A stretch of DNA of 64,000 nt, taken from Bacillus sp. Y1 (GTDB lineage: Bacteria > Bacillota > Bacilli > Bacillales > Cytobacillaceae). How positions within the stretch are numbered: the stretch's first letter is position 1; every line of letters begins with the position of its first letter. Positions 12,190 to 55,028 of the stretch are shown here, in pieces. Under the pieces are notes generated by a model. It made no database searches. It had not been told where the DNA came from and worked only from the letters and a program-made list of their open reading frames with translations. The translations under genes and the position numbers were made by a program. The stretch lies in assembly GCF_003586445.1 (NCBI RefSeq), contig NZ_CP030028.1, forward strand, positions 4,106,501 to 4,170,500. Direction: 5' to 3'.

Positions 12190-12222
12190 TAGCTGTAAGC
12201 CTTTTGGTAAGCGCTACAGCTA
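12190..12222 (-). terminator. terminator of the cyclase-less RiPP operon
   Basis: TAGCTGTA (12190-12197) pairs with TACAGCTA (12215-12222), extended by AGC/GC pairs, and is followed on the minus strand by TTTTTCATT. It overlaps the stop codon of the nucleotidyltransferase gene and ends the operon. Confidence 0.8.
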
Positions 12223-13236
12223 CTGGTGTTTAGTAGAGGATATAACAAGTGGTTTGGTTGGTCGTAAGGATTTAATCCAGCTTAAAAACTCACTTTTACT
12301 ATGGGATAAGCTATCATAGCTAAAAAAAGAGTAGTCCACAAAATCTAGATAGTTCTTTAACTGTTTCTTGTGTCCATTTCTAAACGCATTATAATCCCAT
12401 AAGTTTGGCCTTTTAACAGGCAATGGTTTAACGTTTTGCAAGTATGGGTGCTGTTGATAAACGATTGCGAGAGTACGGATCATTCGTTTTTGAGTACGAT
12501 GATGTCTAGCCTGAACGAGCAATTGTATGTAATCCACTCTGTCACCAATCCGATAAATCAGTTGAATGATATCTAGAAAGTGTTTCGGGGAATCAAGATT
12601 ATGTCTCCATCCATGCAAGCAAATCATATAAAAGGTGTGATAGTCTGATAGTTCTTTTATATATTGGTAGCTCCCTAAAGACTTAGCTCCCTGCCAAAAC
12701 TCTTCTATCGGAAGCTTGGAGGTATCATCCTTCAACAGGTTCCAGTGTAACTCTACTGTTAATGGAATTTTTGAGTTCGGAATCGGTTTACTAAAACTAC
12801 AGTGAAAATGTCCAGCAATCGGCTCTTCTTCAACGGAATAGCCTAAAGTGATAACGGTAGATATCGCACGTTCCAAGTCCTCCGGCTGAATGAGTACATC
12901 TATATCTGATGTACCTCTTGCCCCAATATGACCAAAGTACTTTTCAGCAAATAGTACTCCCTTTAAAGGAATAGCTGGAAGTTCAGCTTGCTCAAAGCAA
13001 TCCAAAACCTTCGTTAATTCGCTTTTAATAAAAAGAGATAAAAAGAGATTTACTTCGTATTGCTCCTTCAAGCGTTCCTGGAAAAATACAGGTGTGCGAT
13101 TTAATGTTCCTTGTTGCTTTAATTGGTAGTAAGCTTGGGGAGCAACACCAAACTCCAAGATTTCTTTTAATATAGATTTGTAATCATATGAATCTAGAGG
13201 TGCCTCAGCTTCATACAATCCCTGAATCCATTTCAT
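12220..13236 (-). CDS. nucleotidyltransferase-family RiPP tailoring enzyme
   Basis: 338 aa, of the NTP_transf_5 type common in lasso-peptide operons. The polymerase-beta-like active site is GARGTSDIDVLIQPEDLERA (two Asp), preceded by PLKGVLFAEKYFG. Further motifs are TVELHWNLLKDD and MICLHGWRHNLDSPKHFLDI, which are matched in the second nucleotidyltransferase of this window (TKVEIHWRLN, THGARHGWSRLRWLMDI). Family members modify the peptide after kinase action in some lasso pathways, but substrate and chemistry here are unknown. Perfect ribosome site (AAAGGAGG). Last gene of the operon, 17 bases after the exporter gene. Confidence 0.8.
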   Translation of the reverse strand: MKWIQGLYEAEAPLDSYDYKSILKEILEFGVAPQAYYQLKQQGTLNRTPVFFQERLKEQYEVNLFLSLFIKSELTKVLDCFEQAELPAIPLKGVLFAEKYFGHIGARGTSDIDVLIQPEDLERAISTVITLGYSVEEEPIAGHFHCSFSKPIPNSKIPLTVELHWNLLKDDTSKLPIEEFWQGAKSLGSYQYIKELSDYHTFYMICLHGWRHNLDSPKHFLDIIQLIYRIGDRVDYIQLLVQARHHRTQKRMIRTLAIVYQQHPYLQNVKPLPVKRPNLWDYNAFRNGHKKQLKNYLDFVDYSFFSYDSLSHSKSEFLSWIKSLRPTKPLVISSTKHQ

Positions 13237-13253
13237 GACACATCCTCCTTTCT

Positions 13254-15053
13254 TTATGCAAGTGATAGCTCAACTTTAGGTTTGAATTTTGTACGGCTTA
13301 GAGTTTGATATAATCCTGGTTGGTTAATTAACTCCTCATGTGATCCCTGCTGAACGATTTTTCCTTGATCCATTACCAAAATTAAATCAGCACTTTCAAT
13401 CGTTGATAAACGATGAGCAATGACAAGAGTGGTTCGATTTTTCTTTAGTGAGTTCAGAGCTTCCTTCACATAGTATTCCGTTTCCGTATCAAGTGCGGAG
13501 GTTGCTTCATCTAATAAAAGAATCGGCGCATCCTTTAATATTGCCCTGGCAATCGCTATTCGCTGCTTCTGGCCACCTGATAGCTTCATTCCTCTTTCAC
13601 CGATTTCAGTATCGTAACCGTTTTGGAGTGAAAGAATGAAGTCATGGATGCAAGCGTCTTGTGCAGCACAAATCATTTCCTGTTCTGTAATCCCAGGTCT
13701 TGCTAACATTAGGTTTTCACGTATGGTTCCAGCAAAAAGGAATGTTTCTTGAGGGACACTGGCGATCGTGCTTCTTAATTTTGATACGGTCATTTCCTTT
13801 ATGGACACTCCATCAAAAAGGATGTCTCCTTTTTGTGGTTGGTAGAAGCCTTGTAGTAGGTTGAATAGGGTGCTTTTTCCCGCTCCGCTTGGGCCTACTA
13901 GGGCGATGACTTTGTTGGCTGGGATGGATAGTTGTAAATTTTTGAATACCTGAGTTGTTTCATTATAACTAAAGGTTATCCCTTGAAATTCCATCGCATG
14001 TGAAAGACTCTTTCCTGATGTGTAGGAAGGTAGTCGAGGAGATTCTGCCTTTTCTTCGGTTACATTTAGTATTCTTTCCACTGATGTAAGAGATCGCTGA
14101 AAGCCTGCCCATTGTCCTGCAAGTCTTGTCATTGGACTGACTAAATATCCGACAAGACTCTGAAAAGTTAGTAATGCTCCTACCGTCATAGATCCTTTAG
14201 AAACAAAATATGCCCCTAATAAAAGACTGATATAGTAAGAGCCCGCACTTAGCAGATTTCCCCCTGAGGAAAAATATCCTCTTAACTTTGCATTAGTAAG
14301 CTCAAGATGATAGAGTTCTTCATTTTGAGAAGAAAATTCTTGGTAGGATTTCTTTTCTAAAGTAAAAGATCGAATAACAGAAATACCCTGAAAGGTTTCG
14401 CTAAGATGTGCATTTACTTTTTCAAAAAGGGTGTTGAGCTTTCTACTATTTCGACGAAGCAATACCCCAAATACGGCTCCAGCTAAAATGGCCAATGGTG
14501 TGGCAAGAAGGGTCAGAAGAGACATCGTCATATTTAACTGAAGAAGATAAATAAAGACGACCAAAAAAATGAGTGGAAGTCTGATGAGGTTAATTAAGTT
14601 GCTCCCAATAACACCGTCAAGGTTATGAATGTCATTTGTAAAATACGTAATAACTTCTCCAGATTTCATTTGAGAGAAGCGGCTTGTTGGAAGTCTTAAA
14701 ATGTGGCTAAATAAATAGTCTTTAATATCTCGTTTTACACCGTTTGTTGCTACTGTTTCAAAGTAAATATCTGCGAAAGAAAAGGAAATACTTATTACAA
14801 CCAGTGTAAGAGCAATTGGGATGAGTGTTTTGATTTCCTCGAAATCTGCACGAACCGCAGCATCAGCAATCTTTCCAAAAAATGAAGCAAACGCAACTGT
14901 TAAAAAAATATCAACAAATAATAATAACAATAAAACCAAATAAGCCTTCCATCGCTTCAAAACAAAAGGCTTCAATAATCCAAAGGTTTTTTTAAAATCC
15001 TTAAGCACAATATATTCTTTCATGCGAGGTAAGAGCTGCTGAACTCTATTCAT
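13254..15053 (-). CDS. ABC exporter (permease-ATPase fusion) of the RiPP operon
   Basis: 599 aa. An N-terminal six-helix exporter domain (~residues 30-330) is followed by an ATPase with Walker A GPSGAGKST, Q-loop ASVPQETFLFAGT, signature LSGGQKQRIAIARAIL, Walker B ILLLDEATSALD and the H-loop His in VIAHRLST. There is no C39 peptidase domain, so the leader must be removed elsewhere, plausibly by the S26 peptidase encoded just upstream. It is expected to export and give self-immunity to the modified peptide. It lies 14 bases after the peptidase gene. A homologous exporter serves the lasso operon. Confidence 0.9.
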   Translation of the reverse strand: MNRVQQLLPRMKEYIVLKDFKKTFGLLKPFVLKRWKAYLVLLLLLFVDIFLTVAFASFFGKIADAAVRADFEEIKTLIPIALTLVVISISFSFADIYFETVATNGVKRDIKDYLFSHILRLPTSRFSQMKSGEVITYFTNDIHNLDGVIGSNLINLIRLPLIFLVVFIYLLQLNMTMSLLTLLATPLAILAGAVFGVLLRRNSRKLNTLFEKVNAHLSETFQGISVIRSFTLEKKSYQEFSSQNEELYHLELTNAKLRGYFSSGGNLLSAGSYYISLLLGAYFVSKGSMTVGALLTFQSLVGYLVSPMTRLAGQWAGFQRSLTSVERILNVTEEKAESPRLPSYTSGKSLSHAMEFQGITFSYNETTQVFKNLQLSIPANKVIALVGPSGAGKSTLFNLLQGFYQPQKGDILFDGVSIKEMTVSKLRSTIASVPQETFLFAGTIRENLMLARPGITEQEMICAAQDACIHDFILSLQNGYDTEIGERGMKLSGGQKQRIAIARAILKDAPILLLDEATSALDTETEYYVKEALNSLKKNRTTLVIAHRLSTIESADLILVMDQGKIVQQGSHEELINQPGLYQTLSRTKFKPKVELSLA

Positions 15054-15067
15054 ATTGACACTCCATC

Positions 15068-15502
15068 TTAAAATCTTCTATTTAAATAGCTTCTAAGAAT
15101 AAAAGAAAGAAACGGAAAAGTAATAATTAACTTACTCCATCCTGCTACAATCAAATTGCTCGGTTGAACTACATGCTTTTGTTTTTCAATGGAAACAAGT
15201 GTACCTAGAATCCGTTCTTTTTGAATGGGTTCATCAAATCCAAGGTTTGTATCACCTTTACAGCGATATATATTCTCTGATTCCATCTCGTAAAATCGGT
15301 GGGCAATCAACTTACCGTTTGAAGCCCAAAATAATAGAATATCTCCTTTTTTTAAAGAGGTTGAATCAAAAGGTGTAAACCTGCAAATATCTCCTTGTTG
15401 TATAAGGGGATACATACTATTCCCTTCACTTGGCAGAGAAATAGATCCTTCATTAGTAATCGTTTTTTGAAGAACGGAAATAATATCCTGACTAAACAGC
15501 AT
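15068..15502 (-). CDS. S24/S26-type (signal-peptidase-like) serine peptidase in RiPP operon
   Basis: 144 aa. The nucleophile Ser is in LPSEGNSMYPLIQQGDICRF (the SMxP box). GDILLFWASNGKLIAHRFYE follows, with a His where SipW/ER-type signal peptidases use a Ser-His dyad, then YRCKGDTN. There is no N-terminal membrane anchor; one hydrophobic segment lies at the C-terminus (~residues 120-140). Its gene overlaps the PqqD-type gene by 11 bases. In this operon it takes the place of the transglutaminase-like leader peptidase (B2) of lasso pathways, so I infer that it cleaves the 53-aa precursor. This is not proven. Confidence 0.8.
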   Translation of the reverse strand: MLFSQDIISVLQKTITNEGSISLPSEGNSMYPLIQQGDICRFTPFDSTSLKKGDILLFWASNGKLIAHRFYEMESENIYRCKGDTNLGFDEPIQKERILGTLVSIEKQKHVVQPSNLIVAGWSKLIITFPFLSFILRSYLNRRF

Positions 15503-15758
15503 GAATAACCAATCCGTATTCGATAAGGTCTTTTAAAAATACCTCAATGTCTTTTGCATCAACTGATAGGTCTCCTTGAAACTCAGCTTCTATGGATTGA
15601 ATAATGGAGCCAACCGTCTGTTTCTCCTTAAGCAATGACCAACAAAAGCCACCCATTTCATTAAGCTTTGTGACGGTAAAATGCTCAGCATCTAGAATAA
15701 TCCACTCTCCATCGAGTTGGGTAGTATCAAAGCTCTCTTTTTGGATGTAGTGCGTCAT
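15492..15758 (-). CDS. PqqD-like RiPP recognition protein
   Basis: 88 aa from the ATG at 15758, which shares bases with the kinase stop (TAATG) and has GGGAG upstream; a longer frame would start inside the kinase gene. The PqqD fold is recognisable: DGEWIILDAEHFTVTKLNEM (strand region), GGFCWSLLKEKQTVGSIIQS and the helical C-terminal half DAKDIEVFLKDLIEYGLVI. Such RRE proteins bind the leader of a ribosomal peptide and deliver it to the modifying enzymes. Tight overlaps on both sides show co-translation with the kinase and peptidase. Confidence 0.85.
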   Translation of the reverse strand: MTHYIQKESFDTTQLDGEWIILDAEHFTVTKLNEMGGFCWSLLKEKQTVGSIIQSIEAEFQGDLSVDAKDIEVFLKDLIEYGLVIHAV

Positions 15759-16531
15759 TATGAAATCAACTCCCAAAAGGTATCATTTTTCTGAAAATGC
15801 AGTTCATAGACTGAGACTTTATCTACTAAACTCAATAGCAGGTACATAATCTTTTTCGTTTCCTCAGGACAGTGTACCCAGTAAAATACCTTATCCATAA
15901 GATTTAAGACAGCATCTGACTTTTTTAGTTGGTTCCTGCTATTGAACAAAGCTTGCCGTAAAAGCTGAATGCTTACTAGCGGTGTTGAGGTTTCTTTACC
16001 CGTTACCTTTAACTCGCTACGAAATGGTGAATTAAACACCGTTATTCCTTCAGGAGCAATTTTGACAAGCGTCGCTTCATCCGAAAGGAGCTCTCTCGGT
16101 GCTGATAATTTGGCAGCAGTCGACTTCCCCGCTCCAGAACGGCCTGTAAAAATATGAGCCTTCCCTTCCTCCACTACACAGGAGGAATGAATTAATAATC
16201 CCCAGTTATTGTGAAGGATATATGCGCTGTAAAAGTTCATCAGAGCATGCTTTAGGGCTAGTTCGTCATTTACGTAAATTGTTGCTTGTTTATAATCCTC
16301 ATCGGTATCGATAAGGTAATCTGCGCGACGGTAATATAAGTTATTTGATTGTTTTTTGATTTCAACATCGTAGTCTGTAAAGGGTACACCATAACCAGTT
16401 TTTATATTGATCGAAATGTCATACTGGGGATTTTTTAAAGGTAGTAGTCTAAAGTTTCTTTGAAAAAAATCTAAAATATAAGAAGACTCGTATGTTACAG
16501 ATGCTATATGCTCCCCTATTTGTAGGTACAT
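15758..16531 (-). CDS. HPr-kinase-like RiPP kinase
   Basis: 257 aa. An N-terminal beta-rich domain is followed by the P-loop HIFTGRSGAGKSTAAKL and the HPrK-like acidic motif ELLSDEATLVKI. The family includes lasso-peptide kinases that phosphorylate a C-terminal Ser. Here the encoded precursor ends in Asn-Lys, so a different Ser (residues 28 or 34 of the precursor are in the likely core) or another acceptor would be needed. Excellent ribosome site (AAAGGAG). First gene after the precursor, separated from it by an attenuator hairpin. The lasso operon has its own homologue at 51965-52882. Confidence 0.85.
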   Translation of the reverse strand: MYLQIGEHIASVTYESSYILDFFQRNFRLLPLKNPQYDISINIKTGYGVPFTDYDVEIKKQSNNLYYRRADYLIDTDEDYKQATIYVNDELALKHALMNFYSAYILHNNWGLLIHSSCVVEEGKAHIFTGRSGAGKSTAAKLSAPRELLSDEATLVKIAPEGITVFNSPFRSELKVTGKETSTPLVSIQLLRQALFNSRNQLKKSDAVLNLMDKVFYWVHCPEETKKIMYLLLSLVDKVSVYELHFQKNDTFWELIS

Positions 16532-16561
16532 TGTTTTTCTCCTTTAACACTTTCAGAAAAG

Positions 16562-16618
16562 TACGGGACCAATATGTACATTTTCTGCTATGTTATAATA
16601 ATGAACTATTGTCCCGTA
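16562..16618 (-). terminator. attenuator hairpin between precursor and kinase genes
   Basis: On the minus strand TACGGGACAATA pairs with TATTGGTCCCGTA (one bulged base) and is followed by CTTTTCTG. Leaky termination here would give more precursor mRNA than enzyme mRNA. The same arrangement occurs after the lasso precursor. Confidence 0.7.
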
Positions 16619-16633
16619 TCATGAATGGGATTG

Positions 16634-16795
16634 TTATTTATTCGGATGATCCTTCTTAGGGTCAAACGGATCATGCGGATATTTCTTTCCATCACTCTTT
16701 CCTGGATCTCCAGATACAGGCCCATGACCTTTATTCCAACTTTGAGAAGTTTCAAAGCGAATCGGCTGATGACTTAATACTAGAGGTTTTTCCAT
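16634..16795 (-). CDS. putative RiPP precursor peptide, 53 aa
   Basis: Found by reading the region upstream of the kinase gene. It has the best ribosome site of the operon (AAAGGAGGTGA, seven bases before the ATG). The N-terminal leader-like part is MEKPLVLSHQPIRFETSQSW. The C-terminal half is rich in Gly, Pro, Asp, His and Lys with no Cys: NKGHGPVSGDPGKSDG, then KKYPHDPFDPKKDHPNK. KPLVL may correspond to the YxxPxL motif read by PqqD-type proteins. It does not fit a normal lasso precursor: there is no Thr at -2 before Gly/Ala with a ring Asp/Glu at 7-9, and no cyclase gene is present. The mature form is unknown. The SinR-type operators lie upstream and the attenuator downstream. Confidence 0.75.
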   Translation of the reverse strand: MEKPLVLSHQPIRFETSQSWNKGHGPVSGDPGKSDGKKYPHDPFDPKKDHPNK

Positions 16796-16816
16796 TAATT
16801 TCACCTCCTTTACAAA

Positions 16817-16832
16817 ATTCTCTATAAAGAAC
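16817..16832 (-). promoter_or_regulatory. SinR-type operator dyad, proximal copy
   Basis: ATTCTCT-AT-AAAGAAC: two seven-base half-sites with two-base spacer, one mismatch to GTTCTYT. It lies between the promoter and the precursor ribosome site. Confidence 0.6.
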
Positions 16833-16904
16833 AGTAGTGGTAAAAAAAGAAATCTTATCTAAGTTAATAGATAAAACCTCTAATTAATCTACATTAACAA
16901 GTAG

Positions 16905-16937
16905 ATTATACATGATTAGCAGTTCTTTGGAAAGAAC
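16905..16937 (-). promoter_or_regulatory. promoter of the RiPP operon with SinR-type operator over the -35 region
   Basis: The -10 is TATAAT (16910-16905 on the minus strand). The dyad GTTCTTT-N2-AAAGAAC with perfect half-sites covers 16922-16937, over the -35 position, whose own sequence (TTTCCA) is poor. Repressor binding here should exclude RNA polymerase. The second dyad is 105 bases downstream. Confidence 0.65.
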
Positions 16938-16967: not shown

Positions 16968-17435
16968 TTAAATGGTTAGATCCTTTTTGTCTTCTTTATT
17001 ATAGGTTATTTTCCTTAGGAAGTTACCAAATCTTGACCTTTTATTCTCATATCTCTTATTTAACAAATAGCCTAGTGCCCAAACACCAATACAATTCTTC
17101 AACAAATCCACTAAAGAAAACGACCGAAAGGGAATATAGTATTGGTGCAGTTCATCTACGAGCCCATACCCAATTGCTAAGACAGCAGCAAAAACTTCTA
17201 ATCTATACGAAAGCTTTCCAAACACAAGGAAAGCCATCACTAAAAACAAATAAAGAAGACCAAATTCAAAAAGATGAGCTAACTCTAGCCCAGCACCTAT
17301 TAATAAAAGGATCTTCATATCTATCTGAGTGGAGAGCATATATACAGATTCCGGATCAAAGTTGCTCGTTTGAATCCAAATCAATGCCATATACACGAAT
17401 GGGAGAACTAAAAGAAACATTCTGATTAAAAACAT
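16968..17435 (-). CDS. VanZ-family membrane protein
   Basis: 155 aa from the ATG at 17435, five bases after GGAGG; the longer frame starts at a TTG inside that site. Four to five hydrophobic segments. The VanZ-like motif is GYGLVDELHQYYIPFRSFSLVDLLKNCIG, with the conserved DExHQ and D...N residues. VanZ-like proteins are linked to teicoplanin resistance in enterococci, but most Bacillaceae members have no known function. It follows the phosphoesterase gene by 24 bases and may be read into the RiPP operon promoter region; no terminator is seen between them. Confidence 0.8.
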   Translation of the reverse strand: MFLIRMFLLVLPFVYMALIWIQTSNFDPESVYMLSTQIDMKILLLIGAGLELAHLFEFGLLYLFLVMAFLVFGKLSYRLEVFAAVLAIGYGLVDELHQYYIPFRSFSLVDLLKNCIGVWALGYLLNKRYENKRSRFGNFLRKITYNKEDKKDLTI

Positions 17436-17459
17436 ACTAGCCTCCAATTGGGCATCCTA

Positions 17460-18176
17460 TTACAGTTTTCCATTTAAGACGACATTACTCATCATTTCTG
17501 CATTTGGATAGGCTACGTTTTTGTACTGGTCAACTACTTTTTGCAAATCATAACTTACACGGACATTGGAAGTCTGAATGCTGTCCTTATTAATTTCTAC
17601 GATACAATAGGATGCCTTACTAACTCCATCAAACGGTAGTCCTACGCTGCCTATGTTTACAATACATTTTCCACTGATGAACCGGATATATGGCTTATGA
17701 ATATGAGCATATATGTACAAATCAGCCTCTTGTGTTATCAACTTCTCTATAATTTTATCATCACTTACGTCCGGTGGCACCACATCGAATAAACTATCGG
17801 GTGTCGCATGGAAGGCATAAATCCTTACACCCTCTACCTCAAAGTTCAATTGGGATGGTAATTCTCTCAAGTAATTAACACTTTCATGTGATAAATTTGA
17901 GACGATCCAATCTCTTTCTTTGTTCATTAACTCAAGGGCATGATCTGGAACTTCCCCCCGCTGAACGCCACGGACTACCCACTCGTCTGCATTTCCTTTG
18001 ATTACTTCACAATCAAGCTCTCGAACCAAATCCAACGCACGCTGCGGTTCTGGTCCACGATAACAGATATCGCCTAGGACAAATACTTTATCTACATGTT
18101 TTTCTTTTATATCTTCTAGTACCGCATCCAGTGCAATCGCATTGCCGTGGATGTCGGATATGAATGCTAGTTTCAT
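17460..18176 (-). CDS. YfcE/MJ0936-like metallophosphoesterase
   Basis: 238 aa. Calcineurin-like metal-binding motifs in order: SDIHGN near the N-terminus (D-x-H), LGDICYRGPEP (GD-x-x-x-RGP), KGNADEW (GN-x-D), YAFHATPD and YIYAHIHKPYI (GH-type motif with His-x-His). The second part, FISGKCIVNIGSVGLPFDG, is the usual closing element. It would hydrolyse phosphodiester or phosphomonoester bonds using two metal ions; the substrate is unknown. In Bacillaceae similar genes stand alone or near cell-surface genes. It is likely co-transcribed with the VanZ-like gene. Confidence 0.85.
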   Translation of the reverse strand: MKLAFISDIHGNAIALDAVLEDIKEKHVDKVFVLGDICYRGPEPQRALDLVRELDCEVIKGNADEWVVRGVQRGEVPDHALELMNKERDWIVSNLSHESVNYLRELPSQLNFEVEGVRIYAFHATPDSLFDVVPPDVSDDKIIEKLITQEADLYIYAHIHKPYIRFISGKCIVNIGSVGLPFDGVSKASYCIVEINKDSIQTSNVRVSYDLQKVVDQYKNVAYPNAEMMSNVVLNGKL

Positions 18177-48189: not shown

Positions 48190-49983
48190 CTATAGAGTGG
48201 CTTCTAATTGTTTTCCAAGTAGATGACTAAACAAACCTTTTCTGTCATTAGCTAATTGATTAAATTTTCCAGTTTGTATAATCTTTCCTTGTTCCAAAAC
48301 TATTACTTGATCAGCATTTCTAATGGTTGATAAACGATGTGCAATGACAATGATAGTCATCTTTCCTTTTAGTCTTTCAAGTGACTCCTGTATTTTCCTT
48401 TCATTTTCCGTATCTAATGCGCTTGTAGCTTCATCAAGAACAAGAATGGCTGGCTTACGTAATATTGCTCTTGCCATTACAACTCTTTGTCTTTCACCAC
48501 CTGAAAGTCGAATACCACGATCACCAATGACTGTATCTAATCCCTGTGGCAAACTTTTAACAAAGTCCGCAGAAGCAAACTTAATGGCTTCCCACAACTC
48601 TTCCTCACTTGCCTCCGGACTTGATAATAACAAGTTTTCTCTAATTGTCGTATTAAAAAGAAAAGGGTCCTGTGGAACATAACTAATTGATTGCCTTAAA
48701 GCTAAAACATTAGCCTTTGTTAGGGGCTCATCGTCAATTCTTACTTCTCCTTTTTCAGGTTGATTTAATCCCATGACTAAATCTATTAAGGTACTCTTTC
48801 CAGCACCAGATGGACCAACAATAGCCGTCATGCAATTAGCTTTAAAATAGGTATTTACTCTATTTAAAGCGAAGGTACTTTCCTCTTCGTTATAACGAAA
48901 GAAGATATCTTTACACTCAATTCCACTCTTAATCTGTATCCTTTTTATATTATTGTTTTCAAGGTCATTAAATTCTTTTGCAAGACGTGATTCATTTCGA
49001 AGGTTTATTACGGCCTTTAGTGCAGGAACAATAATTGCAATTTGCTCAAGACTTGATTGGATACCAGTTACACGTGGCCACAACCTAGAAAAAATAACTA
49101 AAATAATCATTAATTGTGCCGCTTGTGCTTCAAAAAGCTGCACAGAAAAGAACGTAAAAACAGCAATTAACACTACAGAAGTAATTTTATAATAAAATTG
49201 TGAAGAAGTTTTTAAGGTGATATACTCCATCTGCTCCACATACATTTTTTGCGTGATTGAGCGAAACCAATTCATTCTTGATTGTTCAAGATAGTTACTT
49301 TTTATTTCTTTCATTCCGTTAAAATTATCTGTAATACCCGCCAGAAAGTTCTTTCCATTTTCAGAAGTTTTACTACCTAGTGCAGTGGATTTTTTAATAA
49401 ATCCTCTTGAAAAGATCGTTAGAACAAAACCGCTTATTATAACAAATGCAGTAATTTCAGGTGATAAAAAGAGAGCAATTCCTATTTGAATCATAGAGAA
49501 AATGATAGCTGTTATAAACTGCAAAAATACATTGGTTCCTGTACTTACTCGTGCTAATTCTGCTGTGATTGTATTAATTAAGTCTGTTTTTCTTTTTTTG
49601 ATATAAAAATCCCAATTCGCCAGTAACAAATCTTGATATACTTCTAGTCTTAAGTGCTTTGCAAATCCATGCTGAATTTTCACGTTCTTAACTGTTACAT
49701 ATCTCTGAATTAAGTTTAAAATAATATTTACAAGCACGAATAAACTCAGAATCATAATTAACCTTATATCTTCTGGAAGCTCATTGAAAGAATTAAATAG
49801 GTTTGATATCGGTATTCCTTGATTATTTATGTTTATTAATCCACTGTAACTAATCAATGGTACTATTAATAACAATCCTAAACCATCTAATAAGCTAACT
49901 AATACCATACCAAAGAGATTAAAATAAAGTTTATTTCCAACATATGAGTATAACTGCTTATAAAAGTATAAGACCTGTTTCAT
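48190..49983 (-). CDS. lasso-peptide ABC exporter
   Basis: 597 aa. Six-helix exporter domain (~residues 10-320) and ATPase with Walker A GPSGAGKSTLIDLV, Q-loop SYVPQDPFLFNTT, signature LSGGERQRVVMARAIL, Walker B ILVLDEATSALD and VIAHRLST. It lacks a peptidase domain, as lasso exporters (D proteins) do, and should give export and self-immunity. Ribosome site GGGGGA. Last gene of the lasso operon. No terminator separates it from the eps promoter, so read-through into eps is possible. Confidence 0.9.
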   Translation of the reverse strand: MKQVLYFYKQLYSYVGNKLYFNLFGMVLVSLLDGLGLLLIVPLISYSGLININNQGIPISNLFNSFNELPEDIRLIMILSLFVLVNIILNLIQRYVTVKNVKIQHGFAKHLRLEVYQDLLLANWDFYIKKRKTDLINTITAELARVSTGTNVFLQFITAIIFSMIQIGIALFLSPEITAFVIISGFVLTIFSRGFIKKSTALGSKTSENGKNFLAGITDNFNGMKEIKSNYLEQSRMNWFRSITQKMYVEQMEYITLKTSSQFYYKITSVVLIAVFTFFSVQLFEAQAAQLMIILVIFSRLWPRVTGIQSSLEQIAIIVPALKAVINLRNESRLAKEFNDLENNNIKRIQIKSGIECKDIFFRYNEEESTFALNRVNTYFKANCMTAIVGPSGAGKSTLIDLVMGLNQPEKGEVRIDDEPLTKANVLALRQSISYVPQDPFLFNTTIRENLLLSSPEASEEELWEAIKFASADFVKSLPQGLDTVIGDRGIRLSGGERQRVVMARAILRKPAILVLDEATSALDTENERKIQESLERLKGKMTIIVIAHRLSTIRNADQVIVLEQGKIIQTGKFNQLANDRKGLFSHLLGKQLEATL

Positions 49984-49994
49984 TTTAAATCCCC

Positions 49995-51170
49995 CTAGGA
50001 TAAAACATGTTTACTCTTTCTTTTCCATAACAATAAAAATGGTCTAAGAGGAAAGTACAGAAAATGCAATTTTTTTGGTAACGGCAATATTTCGGCATCA
50101 GTGTAAAATGGGTGTAGGATACTTAGTAAGTGAAGTACTTTTTGCTGTGTAGACATTAACGAGAATAAATGTCTTGCGTGAAACTTTGAAATCCCTATCG
50201 GTAATGGTTCGTTATGTAAACTCACCATCCGCTCTAGATAAAACACTGCATCTTGTGCCAATTGTATCGACTGTCTCTTAGATGTTAATTCTTTTACTTC
50301 ATTAGGGATCTCTGTATTAAAAAGGGAATTTGAAAGGATTAGTGATTGTCCGGCAAGTTTTGCCGATTGAAAACTATGAAGGTTTTTATTAATTCCTCCC
50401 CAATCCAATTCTTTATCTAGTATTTTGTGGATGTCCATAAGCCATCGTAACCTAGACCAACCATGACGTGCACCATGAGTGACTAAAAAATAGAATAAAT
50501 CTTCCACACCTAAGTAATGTATCGGTTTATCCTTTAATACAAATTGTCTGCTACGTTTCCATAAATCCTCAAACATTGGTTCTTTACTTGGGGCTGGATT
50601 TAGTCTCCAATGTATTTCCACTTTTGTTCCTTTCTCTCTGTGAAAATATGTAAAATGATGGTGTCTCCATTTCCAATCACCTAATAAAGTTTTTATATAT
50701 TCATCCTTCTTGTACCCTAGTTGTATAAGTAGGTTGTCAACTGCTTGGAGGTCACGAAAAGGTACCAGTACATCTAAATCCCCACAGGTTCTACTTGATA
50801 GATCTTCATAAAGGTCTTTTGCAAGGAGAGGACCTTTTAAAAAAAGTGCAGATATTTCATTACTTTGTAATACTATATTAAGTTCTTCCATTTCACCAAA
50901 GAGAGATAGCATACGAAAAGTGTTTTTTTCATAGGAACTTTTTAGTTGTTGAATAACACTTGAAGGAATCCACTGATTCTTTTCTTTGTGTATTTTTTTA
51001 TAAAGAATTGGATAGAGGCGATGATGAAAAGCAAGTTGTAAAAAGTGATTCCAATCAATGTCAATATTTTTGTATCTATTTGTTGTATCTACGTTATTGT
51101 TTAGGAGATCTAAGAGTAAGTTTAATTCTATTGGTAATGTCGATAAGTTAAGTCCCTTTAAGTTTCTCAT
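49995..51170 (-). CDS. nucleotidyltransferase-family lasso tailoring enzyme
   Basis: 391 aa from the ATG at 51170 (MRNLKGLNLS) with AAAGGGGA upstream; overlaps the B2 gene by 23 bases. Active-site motif SSRTCGDLDVLVPFRDLQAV, preceded by ALFLKGPLLAKDLYEDL; then TKVEIHWRLNPAPSK and THGARHGWSRLRWLMDI. The family (NTP_transf_5) recurs in Bacillaceae lasso operons with a kinase; from memory, in the pseudomycoidin pathway the corresponding protein is tied to further modification of the phosphorylated peptide. The exact reaction is not deducible. A shorter homologue is in the other RiPP operon. Confidence 0.82.
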   Translation of the reverse strand: MRNLKGLNLSTLPIELNLLLDLLNNNVDTTNRYKNIDIDWNHFLQLAFHHRLYPILYKKIHKEKNQWIPSSVIQQLKSSYEKNTFRMLSLFGEMEELNIVLQSNEISALFLKGPLLAKDLYEDLSSRTCGDLDVLVPFRDLQAVDNLLIQLGYKKDEYIKTLLGDWKWRHHHFTYFHREKGTKVEIHWRLNPAPSKEPMFEDLWKRSRQFVLKDKPIHYLGVEDLFYFLVTHGARHGWSRLRWLMDIHKILDKELDWGGINKNLHSFQSAKLAGQSLILSNSLFNTEIPNEVKELTSKRQSIQLAQDAVFYLERMVSLHNEPLPIGISKFHARHLFSLMSTQQKVLHLLSILHPFYTDAEILPLPKKLHFLYFPLRPFLLLWKRKSKHVLS

Positions 51171-51639
51171 TTCTTTCCCCTTTTTCACTTCCAGTTCTCT
51201 TAGCAAACATACTTACGACTGTAAATCTCTTCATCTCTTCAACCCCCGAAATATACAAGGGACCACTTCGTAACCAAGCATGTGCAATAAGTTTGCCATC
51301 ATTTTCTCTTGCAGTACCAAGATAAAGTGTACTATCAATATCTCTTCTCTCAAGCATCTTCATTCCTGCGATTGCCTTTACCAGACATTGACTCTCCCAA
51401 AACGTATACTTACTCATAATATGAATGGCACTAGAGATATTTTTAATCATTTGTTTTTCATCTTCAATAAAGTCATAGGAAGTTTCCGACATTTGTTCCC
51501 CTAAAATTGGAGCAATATCAGAGAAACGCTTCATCTTAAGAAATCTTGCCCAACCTAAAAGAATGAATGCCTCGAGAAACAACAACTGTGTAATTAAACC
51601 CAACCGAAAAAAAGTACTACATTTAGAAATTATTCTCAT
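51148..51639 (-). CDS. lasso leader peptidase (B2, transglutaminase-like)
   Basis: 163 aa. Catalytic Cys in FWESQCLVKAIAGMKMLERR and His in GKLIAHAWLRSGPLYISG. The third (Asp) position expected about 12 residues after the His is Ser/Gly here, which may be normal for this subfamily. The N-terminal part has a hydrophobic stretch (ITQLLFLEAFILLGWARFL). It cleaves the leader after the conserved Thr-Met, with the B1 protein presenting the substrate. 28 bases after the B1 gene. Confidence 0.88.
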   Translation of the reverse strand: MRIISKCSTFFRLGLITQLLFLEAFILLGWARFLKMKRFSDIAPILGEQMSETSYDFIEDEKQMIKNISSAIHIMSKYTFWESQCLVKAIAGMKMLERRDIDSTLYLGTARENDGKLIAHAWLRSGPLYISGVEEMKRFTVVSMFAKRTGSEKGERNEKLKGT

Positions 51640-51667
51640 ACTAATAGACCTCTGCTCCTAAAGTAAC

Positions 51668-51958
51668 TTAGGTCAATTCAATTAACTCTTCTTTTAATAA
51701 ATGATTCAAAAATTGAATAGCTTGTGTTTCACAATCGACCCTTTCAACCTGATAGATTTCGATCAGTTTTTCAATTAACTCATTTACTTCAAAAGTTGGA
51801 TCTATTATTTCCCAAATAATCCCACCACTTTCACCAAGATTATAATACTTGCCATTCTTTACACTTAACATTACTTTCTCTCCACCCATATCACTTACAA
51901 TATTTCCTTCAACTTTCTTGACTCTATCTTTTAAAGTAACACCTTTTTGGGTTAACAT
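51668..51958 (-). CDS. lasso leader-recognition protein (B1, PqqD-like RRE)
   Basis: 96 aa. Ribosome site AAAGGAGTGA overlaps the end of the kinase gene. PqqD-like fold: NIVSDMGGEKVMLSVKNGKY, YNLGESGGIIWEIID and the C-terminal helices QAIQFLNHLLKEELIEL. YYNLGESGGIIW is typical of lasso B1 proteins. It binds the leader motif WQTPEL of the precursor and recruits B2. Confidence 0.9.
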   Translation of the reverse strand: MLTQKGVTLKDRVKKVEGNIVSDMGGEKVMLSVKNGKYYNLGESGGIIWEIIDPTFEVNELIEKLIEIYQVERVDCETQAIQFLNHLLKEELIELT

Positions 51959-51964
51959 ATCACT

Positions 51965-52882
51965 TCACTCCTTTTGTGCGACCTCTAAAATTAAATCCGA
52001 TAATTCCTTAGTGGTAAACCGACTTTCGGGACGAGTTAACTGGTACATCATGGTAGAATTAGCTAATGTAGTTGTAATATTGAAATGCCACTCTAGTAAG
52101 TCAAGCCGTTCAACTAGGAAACTACGAAATGTATGTTCAAAGAGTTTTTTTATTTGTTCAAGTTTGTTTAAAGGGCGTAAAGTAACTTCTTCCGCGCCGG
52201 TCACAAGTTCAAATATCCCAGCTAACGGTATCTGTTCATCATAGAATTTAGAATGTAAGGGGATTAAAAATTTGTTTTCCCTATCGAATATAGGTTGATA
52301 TTGATCTGAACTAACTTTTAAAGCATCAAGGCTCTCCTTCCAAAGTTTTTGTTGAGGGTAAGAGGGTAAAACCATCGGAATTCCACTTTCTAGAGTGACT
52401 GGAATGATATCGTCAGTTAATAGTCGGTAGCCTTGATTTAATAATGTAGCAGCCAATGTAGATTTACCTGCTCCCGATTCTCCAACAACTCCATAAGCTT
52501 TCTTATTAATTTCTACAACACTACCATGAAGTGGTATTATCTTTCTTTGTAACAACAAAGCCCCCATGCAAGTACCTAACAAATATAAACGAATTTGATT
52601 TTCCTTTATACTCCCTATTGGAGTGCAGATTATTTTACTTCCAGATTCAATAGAAAAATAAGCTATGTTTGGAACTCTTATAAATACTTTTTTATCTTTA
52701 ACAATACAAAAAAGACTTGATTCTTTAAAGACTTCACGTAATTTTGACGAATAATCAAAACGAATTATAATATCTATATCCCCGTACTTTTCTGTAACTT
52801 GCGTTAGTTCTGGGAAGTATATATCACTAATAATATTTAGACCAAATGCTCTGTACATAATTTGAGTCGTTAATTGTTCCAT
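51965..52882 (-). CDS. lasso-peptide kinase (HPrK-like)
   Basis: 305 aa from ATG 52882 (MEQLTTQIMYRAFGLNIISD); the longer frame from 52936 would run through the attenuator hairpin, so I reject it. P-loop AYGVVGESGAGKSTLAATLL, then YRLLTDDIIPVTLE with the HPrK-like Asp pair. Members phosphorylate the C-terminal Ser of paeninodin-type peptides; the precursor here ends in Tyr-Ser, which fits. N-terminal YRAFGLNI...LPEL is typical of these kinases. First gene after the precursor. Confidence 0.88.
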   Translation of the reverse strand: MEQLTTQIMYRAFGLNIISDIYFPELTQVTEKYGDIDIIIRFDYSSKLREVFKESSLFCIVKDKKVFIRVPNIAYFSIESGSKIICTPIGSIKENQIRLYLLGTCMGALLLQRKIIPLHGSVVEINKKAYGVVGESGAGKSTLAATLLNQGYRLLTDDIIPVTLESGIPMVLPSYPQQKLWKESLDALKVSSDQYQPIFDRENKFLIPLHSKFYDEQIPLAGIFELVTGAEEVTLRPLNKLEQIKKLFEHTFRSFLVERLDLLEWHFNITTTLANSTMMYQLTRPESRFTTKELSDLILEVAQKE

Positions 52883-52913
52883 AGTCCCCCCAATAAAATG
52901 AAACTTGAGAAAA

Positions 52914-52933
52914 GCCCTTATGCCAATAAGGGC
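52914..52933 (-). terminator. attenuator hairpin between lasso precursor and kinase genes
   Basis: GCCCTTAT-TGGC-ATAAGGGC, eight perfect pairs, followed on the minus strand by TTTTCTC. It should limit transcription of the downstream enzymes relative to the precursor. Confidence 0.8.
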
Positions 52934-52959
52934 CACCCCAATTACTTCGTTAAATAAAA

Positions 52960-53085
52960 TTAGCTGTAATGTACCACTTCATCTACATCTGGTTGACTTG
53001 CATCTGGAGTTTTAATTCCAGGTCCAGCCATTGTCATATTTACATCAAGAACTTGTAGTTCTGGAGTTTGCCATTCCTTTTTCAT
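52960..53085 (-). CDS. paeninodin-type lasso peptide precursor, 41 aa
   Basis: Ribosome site GGGAGGTGA overlaps the cyclase stop codon. The leader is MKKEWQTPELQVLDVNMTM (19 aa), with WQTPEL in place of the YxxPxL recognition motif and the conserved Thr at position -2. The 22-residue core begins AGPGIKTPD and continues ASQPDVDEVVHYS. Ala1 to Asp9 would give a nine-residue macrolactam ring, and the terminal Ser22 is the expected phosphorylation site. The pattern AGPG...PDA.QPD...VHY.S is that of paeninodin as I remember it. Too short to appear among longer frames. Confidence 0.93.
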   Translation of the reverse strand: MKKEWQTPELQVLDVNMTMAGPGIKTPDASQPDVDEVVHYS

Positions 53086-53090
53086 ATTTC

Positions 53091-55028
53091 TCACCTCCCT
53101 TCAATATTCTTTATAAATCGAAATAAAATGAGAACTCTCATTAATATCTTAAAATCAAACTCGAATGCCAATTCTGGTTTTGGAGTTTCTTTCACAGAAA
53201 GTAGACATTGATTAAGTACATCCATATTGATTAATTCGTGAATTGCAGGATGTTTCTTTAGCTCTTCTAGTTCACTTATAAAATTACTCCAATTAGATTT
53301 CATTCTATGGATACTGTCTGCTCCTTGGATTCCCTTTGTCTGCAAATTTAGCCTAACACTATCTGGTAGAAGATCCTTTGTTACCCTTCTAATTAGAGAT
53401 CTACTGTATCCGTTTTGAACATACTGTTCTTCTGGAATAGATAAACAAAATTTAATAACTCTCAAATCATTGGTTGGATCTCGGTCAACAAGACCATACT
53501 TAGTTGATAATTTTGCTCCGTATGTACCAGTTGTATTCCAATAATATAGTCTACTAAATTGGTTATCTCTCATTTCATAGACACTAGGAAACTCTAATCC
53601 ATATTTATCAATGTTATTTTGCTTTAAAATCTCATACACACTTGTCTTATTAGCTAGATTATTATTAATAAAAACAGGAAAAGGAGTTGAACTAATTGCG
53701 GTAGATAATGAAGGAAGTGCTCTTCTTAAAACATCACTTAGTATCCTTTTTTTCTTAATACCGCCAAGATTTTTACTAAAAGCATTTAGTTCCTGATTTA
53801 ATTTCAACCATTGAACTCTCTTAAAAAGCAAAGCGTAATATTCTAAAATTGGCCCCCATGAAACAGACCAATTTCCTCTTTGACCTGTTAACAATACTCC
53901 TACTTCCTGCTCTCTAGCTTCCCTATAAATCTCTTCCAACCAAAATGTATTTTCAAAATATTTATATGGCATTTCTAATGTGTCAAGACTATTATCAATA
54001 ACAGAATATGGACTTTTATCAGGGAACGAAAGGAATTTAGGTTCTATGTTTCCAACATAACTTACTATCTCTTCTATTTGAGGTCTTTCGTTCGCAATTC
54101 TACTTTTATGAGTCCAATCTACAAAGTCATCTACCGGTACATAGCTGAATGTATATAATCTCTTTTTATTTTCTTTTAATTTCTTCACTGCAAAACTAAC
54201 TACTGAACTCGAATCAAGTCCACCACTCAAATGAGATCCGATTTCTTTATATGTCCTTACTCTATCGGTCACTGCAATCTCAAATACCTCTGTAAAAGCC
54301 TCTTCATATTCTTTATTTGACTTTAGTTTAATTTTGCTTTCCTGTTTTAAATGACTATATCTTTGTAAAAAGTACCCTTTATTATCTAATTTTAATGAAT
54401 GGGAAGGTGGCAGTTGTTTAATATTTTTATAGACTGTTGAAGATGGATTTACAGAATCAAACTGACTTGGGTTCGCAATAAACTCCGCCAACCATTGTTC
54501 ATTTAAATCTCTATTGAGAACCGGCAACCCCAACATCGGCTTCATCACCGTACAAAACACAAACCGCTGCCCATCTTTAAAATAATAAAGCGTTCGACTA
54601 CCCGAAAAATCTCGAGCCCCAAACAACTTCTGCTCTTTCTCATCCCAAATCACATAGGCAAAGTCTCCAACTAAGAACTTTGGCGATTCCTCCCCCCACT
54701 TATGATAGGCAAGAAGAATCAGCTGACTGTCTGTAATCTTCTTCCGATCTTCTCTATCAATCTGCAAAAGCTGGAAAAGCTCTTCTCGATTGTCGATTAT
54801 CGCGTCTGCTGTGATGGCTAGACGTCTTTCATAATCATAGAATGGTAGCTGTTCGCCAATCGATTCTGGTGTGATCCATTGAGCATGGCAGCCAAGGAAC
54901 AGGTTATCATTATGCCAAGTTTGTATGTCGTTGGCAGGAAATTTTTCTAGAGCTTTCATCATGCCAGTGCTTTGTTCAATTGAGACGGGTTCCCCGTTAA
55001 GGTTTAAGATTCCAGCAATTGCGCTCAT
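53091..55028 (-). CDS. lasso cyclase (asparagine-synthetase-like, C protein)
   Basis: 645 aa. A glutaminase-like N-terminal domain lacking the catalytic Cys (MSAIAGILNLNGE) is followed by the ATP-pyrophosphatase domain with SHLSGGLDSSSVVSFAVKKL (SGGxDS) and later YGAKLSTKYGLVDRDPTNDL. It activates the ring Asp with ATP and closes the bond with the new N-terminus. First gene of the lasso operon, placed before the precursor; the stop codon is part of the precursor's ribosome site. Confidence 0.93.
   Translation of the reverse strand: MSAIAGILNLNGEPVSIEQSTGMMKALEKFPANDIQTWHNDNLFLGCHAQWITPESIGEQLPFYDYERRLAITADAIIDNREELFQLLQIDREDRKKITDSQLILLAYHKWGEESPKFLVGDFAYVIWDEKEQKLFGARDFSGSRTLYYFKDGQRFVFCTVMKPMLGLPVLNRDLNEQWLAEFIANPSQFDSVNPSSTVYKNIKQLPPSHSLKLDNKGYFLQRYSHLKQESKIKLKSNKEYEEAFTEVFEIAVTDRVRTYKEIGSHLSGGLDSSSVVSFAVKKLKENKKRLYTFSYVPVDDFVDWTHKSRIANERPQIEEIVSYVGNIEPKFLSFPDKSPYSVIDNSLDTLEMPYKYFENTFWLEEIYREAREQEVGVLLTGQRGNWSVSWGPILEYYALLFKRVQWLKLNQELNAFSKNLGGIKKKRILSDVLRRALPSLSTAISSTPFPVFINNNLANKTSVYEILKQNNIDKYGLEFPSVYEMRDNQFSRLYYWNTTGTYGAKLSTKYGLVDRDPTNDLRVIKFCLSIPEEQYVQNGYSRSLIRRVTKDLLPDSVRLNLQTKGIQGADSIHRMKSNWSNFISELEELKKHPAIHELINMDVLNQCLLSVKETPKPELAFEFDFKILMRVLILFRFIKNIEGR

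Follow-up and report, generated by a model that had tools for sequence, protein, structure and literature searches.

The stretch of Bacillus sp. Y1 DNA considered here (contig NZ_CP030028.1, positions 4,106,501 to 4,170,500 of the forward strand; 64,000 nucleotides, hereafter the window, with positions counted from its first letter) carries at 12190-16937 six genes on the same strand, which code for a 53-residue peptide, an HprK-like kinase, a PqqD-like protein, an S26 peptidase, an ABC exporter without peptidase domain and a nucleotidyltransferase. This set had been proposed in a first-pass annotation made from the sequence alone, and all six genes are confirmed at their places (Table 1). The six frames are all open; those of the kinase and of the PqqD-like protein overlap by 4 bases, those of the PqqD-like protein and of the S26 peptidase by 11, and the ATG of the peptide is preceded by AAAGGAGGTGAAATTA, a strong ribosome site. 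The PqqD-like protein matches Pfam PqqD with 52.1 bits (cut-off 23.4), all its NCBIfam matches being below cut-off; the nucleotidyltransferase matches Pfam NTP_transf_5 with 126.4 bits (cut-off 31.2), the S26 protein matches the NCBIfam archaeal-type signal peptidase I with 56.5 bits (cut-off 51.85), and the exporter shows the Pfam ABC membrane and ATPase domains, with no peptidase domain listed. All Pfam and NCBIfam matches of the kinase lie below cut-off, and the 53-residue peptide matched no family of either database. Gene and domain annotation of 12190-16937 bears out the absence of a macrolactam cyclase and of a transglutaminase-like B2 peptidase, the S26 protein being present instead of the latter. 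A promoter-like site is found at 16933-16905 and a terminator-like stem at 12018-11998; the claimed promoter and terminator thus have candidate sites, but promoter-like sites are not enriched over shuffled sequences (13 vs 17.3 +/- 4.5), while terminator-like stems number 8 vs 3.0 +/- 1.8 in the shuffles.

The same gene set has been described for linear polyphosphorylated peptides (LPP), as the lpp genes of Paenibacillus alginolyticus DSM5050 (Popov et al. 2026, Nat Commun 17:6633, PMC13381572; this paper, like PMC9266682 and PMC10368454 below, is cited here for parts of its text). The LPP core genes code for a SpI-like peptidase, a discrete recognition element for ribosomally synthesized and post-translationally modified peptides (RRE and RiPP, respectively), an HprK-like kinase, a nucleoside triphosphate (NTP) transferase and an MsbA-like exporter. 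The precursors share the motif YxxPxVLxHQxIxFETxxS, whose Tyr-16 is held by D70 of the RRE LppB and matters for LppB binding; LppK places up to four phosphates on core Ser3, and LppS (S29, H68, D93), helped by LppB, cleaves after T-1. LPP and lasso RREs discriminate, and the LPP core genes yield linear products. Paeninodin-like lasso clusters and capsule loci are co-located with LPP genes; a link to lasso genes holds for about a third of the LPP peptidases, and lasso enzymes are encoded by over half of the LPP bacteria (PMC13381572). A locus of this type is not new in kind, the family having been described in print in 2026; it was new to print in May of that year, and a literature search for the phrase "linear polyphosphorylated peptide" found no second paper. 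By word search, Robertmurraya, Neobacillus and Mesobacillus are absent from the main text of PMC13381572. On sequence comparison the window operon is very probably an lpp operon (probability about 0.9), and the first reading of it as a cyclase-less RiPP operon, whose peptide is presented by the PqqD-like protein, phosphorylated by the kinase, left linear and matured by the S26 enzyme, agrees with the published LPP biochemistry.

The precursor equals the published motif minus its Tyr (xxxPxVLxHQxIxFETxxS), the part PxVLxHQxIxFETxxS being represented by MEKPLVLSHQPIRFETSQS. The predicted leader is M(-16)EKPLVLSHQPIRFET(-1), 16 residues, and the predicted core SQS(3)WNKGHGPVSGDPGKSDGKKYPHDPFDPKKDHPNK, 37 residues. 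Since LppS cleaves after T-1, the conserved Ser becomes the third core residue; the same published cleavage rules out a boundary with T at -2, as suggested by analogy with lasso leaders (PMC13381572). Homologs of the 53-residue peptide form 45 clusters in the protein database, of which P0001 may be the window's own, and the MEKP start recurs in two further database peptides (P0001, P0002).

Conservation was followed with the kinase as query. In the bacterial family 34 of 193 genomes match over the full length (E below 1e-70, weaker short matches not being counted), and in an even draw from the order 39 of 397 match at E<=1e-20; the two sets share 4 genomes and give 69 LPP genomes. From these, 69 regions of 68 genomes (one genome twice), together with the window for its own, were read as 70 loci, designated by L numbers. 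The precursor is present at 67 of the 70, at 65 by the leader pattern and additionally at L133 and L134; it was not found in L043, L106 and L125, and in L062 its gene is separate from the operon and on the opposite strand. Because of this retention and of the 45 clusters, a chance frame is ruled out. Differences across 52 leaders amount to 4850, 3401 and 11315 at the first, second and third codon position, the third being highest, a measure biased by the choice of leaders through a protein pattern. The other five genes are all detectable in 66 of the 70 loci, as counted from the listings; L043 and L046 have no such exporter, L106 has an exporter fragment and L135 no RRE match. With A for the precursor, K for the kinase, D for the PqqD-like RRE, S for the S26 peptidase, T for the exporter and N for the NTP_transf_5 protein, order or strand differ from A-K-D-S-T-N in L062, L064, L072, L106, L118, L122, L125-L127, L130, L131 and L135, and one gene is matched in two pieces in L047, L056, L104 and L137.

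Core residue 3 is Ser in 64 of 70 precursors, Cys in three (L052, L053, L069) and His in three divergent ones (L126, and L135 twice). These Cys and His residues are unexplained, since the LppA variants S3A, S3T and S3Y are not phosphorylated (PMC13381572). L114 (9120-9356) and L119 (6657-7136) carry, beside the main precursor, extra divergent ones with the same type of leader (FETTVSG, FETTISG). In L122, L127 and L131 (genomes G342, G287 and G477, which have no lasso cyclase) the gene order is A-N-K-D-S-T and the cores are short and rich in Lys, Asp and Glu; Ser3 is their sole Ser and, save for Thr1 in two of them, also their sole hydroxyl residue.

Among solved structures the window RRE is closest to LppB (9x8z, E 9.8e-24), the lasso RREs reaching only 5.8e-4 and 1.1e-3. 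The residue equivalent to LppB N33 is Asn in all 69 aligned RREs (N34 in the window), and that equivalent to LppB position 70 is Asp in 53, Glu in 10, Ala in 3, Ser in 2 and Tyr in 1, the window keeping Asp (D71). The window RRE appears to belong with the LppB clade, an assignment made by the best solved relative and by these residues alone, N33 and D70 both being kept.

Residues H115, K136, D151 and E152 of the window kinase are invariant across 51 aligned LPP kinases and, in our reading by position around the Walker A motif, would be the HKDD-type active-site residues. Lasso kinases are reported to carry H-K-D-D and to need all four residues (PMC9266682); a word search of the main text of PMC13381572 found no mention of HKDD or Walker. 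The predicted structure of the kinase (mean predicted local distance difference test score, pLDDT, 89.1) has as nearest PDB folds PEPCK (best E 1e-7, template modelling score, TM, about 0.56 on the model) and then HPr kinase (E 6e-4, TM about 0.3). Four database proteins share 80-89% identity with the kinase, and two Robertmurraya proteins are 84 and 81% identical to it. By sequence, no close solved relative was found for the kinase or for the S26 protein.

The S26 protein is 93% identical to one from R. beringensis; together with the kinase identities, this makes a host in or near Robertmurraya probable. An alignment of 39 sequences shows no variation at its Ser29, Phe42, His68 and Asp90. S29, H68 and D90 are taken to match S29, H68 and D93 of LppS; LppS itself is outside the alignment, and the last pair was matched by counting residues along the KGDTN..FD segment of a relative. 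The best fold match of the model (mean pLDDT 91.2) is a chain of the signal peptidase complex (E 8e-4, TM 0.48), followed by LexA-type domains with E above 1e-3. A single C-terminal membrane anchor was considered and rejected, as the model has two helices (117-128 and 131-143). The published LppS works in an in vitro translation assay (PMC13381572).

Taken over from P. alginolyticus, the pathway in the window would start with binding of the 53-residue precursor by the RRE through the leader. Because Met replaces Tyr at -16, the RRE would have to recognize the leader by P-13 and by further parts of it. The kinase would then put one or more phosphates on core Ser3 (the S of SQSWN), after which the RRE would present the FET end of the leader to the SipW-like S26 peptidase; cleavage after T-1 would release the linear core of 37 residues, to be exported by the ABC protein. 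The NTP_transf_5 protein would probably add a further group to the phosphoserine.

Table 1. Features of the probable LPP operon and of the neighbouring lasso operon (positions in the window)
Feature	Position	Strand	Basis or remark
lppA-like precursor peptide, 53 aa	16634..16795	-	ATG start; leader/core boundary from LppA cleavage after T-1 (PMC13381572)
lppK-like HprK/PEPCK-fold kinase, 257 aa	15758..16531	-	H115, K136, D151, E152 invariant in 51 aligned sequences
lppB-like discrete RRE (PqqD family), 89 aa	15492..15761	-	best solved relative 9x8z; N34, D71 = LppB N33, D70
lppS-like SipW/archaeal-type S26 leader peptidase, 144 aa	15068..15502	-	S29, H68, D90; NCBIfam; roles from PMC13381572
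lppD-like MsbA-type ABC exporter, 599 aa	13254..15053	-	Pfam/NCBIfam; without peptidase domain
lppN-like NTP_transf_5 protein, 338 aa	12220..13236	-	Pfam; D111, D113 conserved in 33/34
lasso macrolactam cyclase	53091..55028	-	separate system, outside the LPP operon
paeninodin-like lasso precursor, WxxP leader (EWQTPEL), likely core AGPGIKTPDASQPDVDEVVHYS	52960..53094	-	neighbouring system
lasso HprK-like kinase	51965..52936	-	H, K, D, D read by eye; neighbouring system
lasso RRE (B1)	51668..51958	-	best solved relative PbaB1 9x90, E 3.2e-29; Gly at PbaB1 position 42 kept
lasso B2 leader peptidase	51148..51639	-	neighbouring system
lasso NTP_transf_5 protein	49995..51206	-	neighbouring system
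lasso ABC exporter	48190..49983	-	neighbouring system

The absence of a cyclase holds inside the operon, but a complete paeninodin-type lasso operon, missed by the first-pass annotation, is present in the same window at 48190-55028, 31 kb from the LPP operon and directly upstream of Wzz/Wze-like genes. Its WxxP precursor ends in Ser, the start of its core being set, as we assume, by analogy with paeninodin. The window belongs to a single contig of 5.03 Mb. The genome has five Asn_synthase places, and the sole one that scores as a lasso cyclase is that at 53091-55028. Between the two operons are mostly polysaccharide genes (glycosyltransferases, sugar-nucleotide enzymes, EpsG, CapD-like and Wzz/Wze-like proteins), together with two acyltransferases, a VanZ-like gene and a phosphoesterase. 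These genes were annotated in the window; in the other genomes 12-19 kb around the LPP operon were read, so that a polysaccharide locus is only partly indicated there. The VanZ-like gene and a calcineurin-like phosphoesterase are found just upstream of the LPP operon (16968-18176), and relatives of the two occur in 23 and 19, respectively, of the 69 fetched regions.

With matches counted at E<=1e-100, 32 of the family's 34 LPP genomes have a lasso cyclase, vs 32 of its 159 genomes without LPP (Fisher P 2e-16); in the order sample the counts are 31 of 39 vs 59 of 358 (P 1.5e-15). Both P values are uncorrected for relatedness. Altogether 59 of the 69 LPP genomes encode one, and in 53 it shares the contig of the LPP operon and is within 50 kb of it. 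In the family the cyclase is that close in 29 of the 32 genomes having both, with a median kinase-cyclase distance of 36.8 kb and a distance of 31-47 kb in 28; outside the family it is within 50 kb in 24 of 27 and within 15 kb in 21, and the lasso exporter often directly precedes the LPP precursor. Directly after the LPP operon of L067 (13346-17990) and L071 (2-4776) there is a lasso cyclase with one in-frame TGA, in a stretch with a precursor, a kinase, an NTP_transf_5 gene and the start of an exporter, inside which the read ends; no RRE or B2 match is found between them, and both genomes (G127, G145) have another cyclase without stop elsewhere.

This linkage would be expected if the neighbouring cyclase and B2 peptidase acted in trans on the 53-residue peptide to give a lasso or other macrolactam, and the leader spacing from Pro to Thr (12) equals that from P-14 to residue -2 in the lasso precursor BsfA (PMC10368454). 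Conversely, no cyclase match is found in 10 of the 69 LPP genomes (G013, G071, G285, G287, G339, G342, G359, G426, G477, G514), and four of the 59 others (G074, G254, G418, G524) have a single copy, which is interrupted or fragmented. Each of the ten genomes without a match has retained an LPP precursor (G514 at one of its two loci). G013 is without such an exporter, and within the 12 kb read no RRE is seen in G285; a leftover fragment of a lasso exporter in G359 suggests that this genome lost a lasso operon. Homologous loci do not, then, always have a cyclase nearby, the finding that the first-pass annotation had named as refuting it; since ten genomes encode none, the lasso cyclase is not part of the LPP system. 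The window core, moreover, has no ring acid (Asp or Glu) at positions 7-9, which are G7 H8 G9, or H7 G8 P9 if the cut is one residue later, and 13 or 14 of 69 leader-pattern matches have one. With the published discrimination between RREs and the linearity of LPP products (PMC13381572), a lasso formed in trans is rejected as most improbable.

Two observations weigh against an lpp operon working as in P. alginolyticus: the window precursor has the initiator Met at -16, where the published LPP has the Tyr bound by LppB, and the fourth HKDD residue is Glu, not Asp, in all 51 aligned LPP kinases. The former could mean that the operon is a decaying relic in which loss of Tyr-16 broke recognition and ended processing of the peptide. 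Tyr-16 is missing from 27 of 70 scored precursors, the window included, and from 15 of the 45 database homologs; the leader pattern scored 67 precursors (40 with Tyr, 27 without), and three more with Tyr were added, namely the main one of L114 and one each from L133 and L134. The acid at the D70 position is missing only in loci without Tyr-16 (6 of 24 vs 0 of 40 Tyr loci, P 0.0018, in 64 loci that leave out the second L119 precursor, L135, which has no RRE, and five loci without pattern match; 6 of 23 vs 0 of 41, P 0.0013, with L114 corrected). However, a single genus accounts for five of the six acid-less loci (with Ala or Ser at this position), and when it is entered only once P becomes 0.097, so that the co-loss in these sequences is only a hint. 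Against decay stand the open frames, the strong ribosome site before the peptide, the identities of the kinase to its database relatives, the intact kinase and peptidase residues and the shared MEKP start; a relic is very unlikely. The published motif is a consensus logo, and Met-16 is therefore taken as a variant and not as an exclusion from LPP.

A different role could fall to the NTP_transf_5 protein, if it makes the defining change and yields a nucleotidylated or hexosylated peptide with the phosphate only as intermediate. Its gene is detectable at 70 of 70 loci, its homolog PsmN is required for the hexoses on phosphoserine in pseudomycoidin (PMC9266682), and the window operon is near sugar-nucleotide and glycosyltransferase genes. 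This is possible, although we favor it less than phosphate as the defining change; addition of nucleotide or hexose is unproven, because lppN deletion had no visible effect in the published heterologous host (PMC13381572), and such a step would add to the LPP pathway more than replace it. In the lpp operon as we read it, Ser3 phosphorylation, T-1 cleavage and RRE binding are attributed to the window enzymes by analogy with those of P. alginolyticus; export and the role of NTP_transf_5 are proposed.

Tyr-16 is not required across the LPP family, about four precursors in ten being without it, while Asn at LppB position 33 is invariant; thus the published Tyr/Trp switch cannot alone keep the LPP and lasso pathways apart. 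In one bacterial family the two operons are kept at similar long distances from each other, in the window around a polysaccharide locus, which hints at a shared cell-surface role. LPP and lasso peptides might even be components of a surface polysaccharide, with phospho-Ser3, extended by the NTP_transf_5 protein, anchoring a sugar or glycan from the intervening locus; this would explain the 31-47 kb spacing, but we consider it doubtful.

Compared with known systems, the operon is closest to the LPP genes of P. alginolyticus, with which it shares gene set and order (lppA-K-B-S-D-N), the leader/core motif save Tyr-16, the peptidase residues, N33 and D70 of the RRE and the lasso and polysaccharide neighborhood; it differs by Met at -16, by a leader of 16 residues vs 27 in LppA, and by a lasso operon that is adjacent there and 31 kb off, across the polysaccharide locus, in the window. 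Paeninodin/pseudomycoidin-type lasso operons (C, A, K, B1, B2, N, D) have in common with it the HprK-like kinase, the discrete RRE, NTP_transf_5, the exporter and a related leader motif. Differently from these, the window operon has neither cyclase nor B2 and has the S26 peptidase in the slot after the RRE; the LPP phosphosite is near the N-terminus of the core (PMC13381572) and not at a C-terminal Ser, and LPP kinases have H-K-D-E vs H-K-D-D. The Bsf lasso peptide of Bradymonas resembles LPP in the phosphorylation of core Ser3 by an RRE-helped kinase and in a similar Pro-to-cleavage spacing, whereas its cluster has a cyclase and its leader is removed by B2 (PMC10368454). Finally, the window kinase and PqqD-like protein are weakly similar to the NCBIfam HprK-related kinase A and SynChlorMet ScmC-ScmD pairs, far below the cut-offs (kinase 33.9 vs 200 and 31.8 vs 125 bits; PqqD-like protein 31.4 vs 100).

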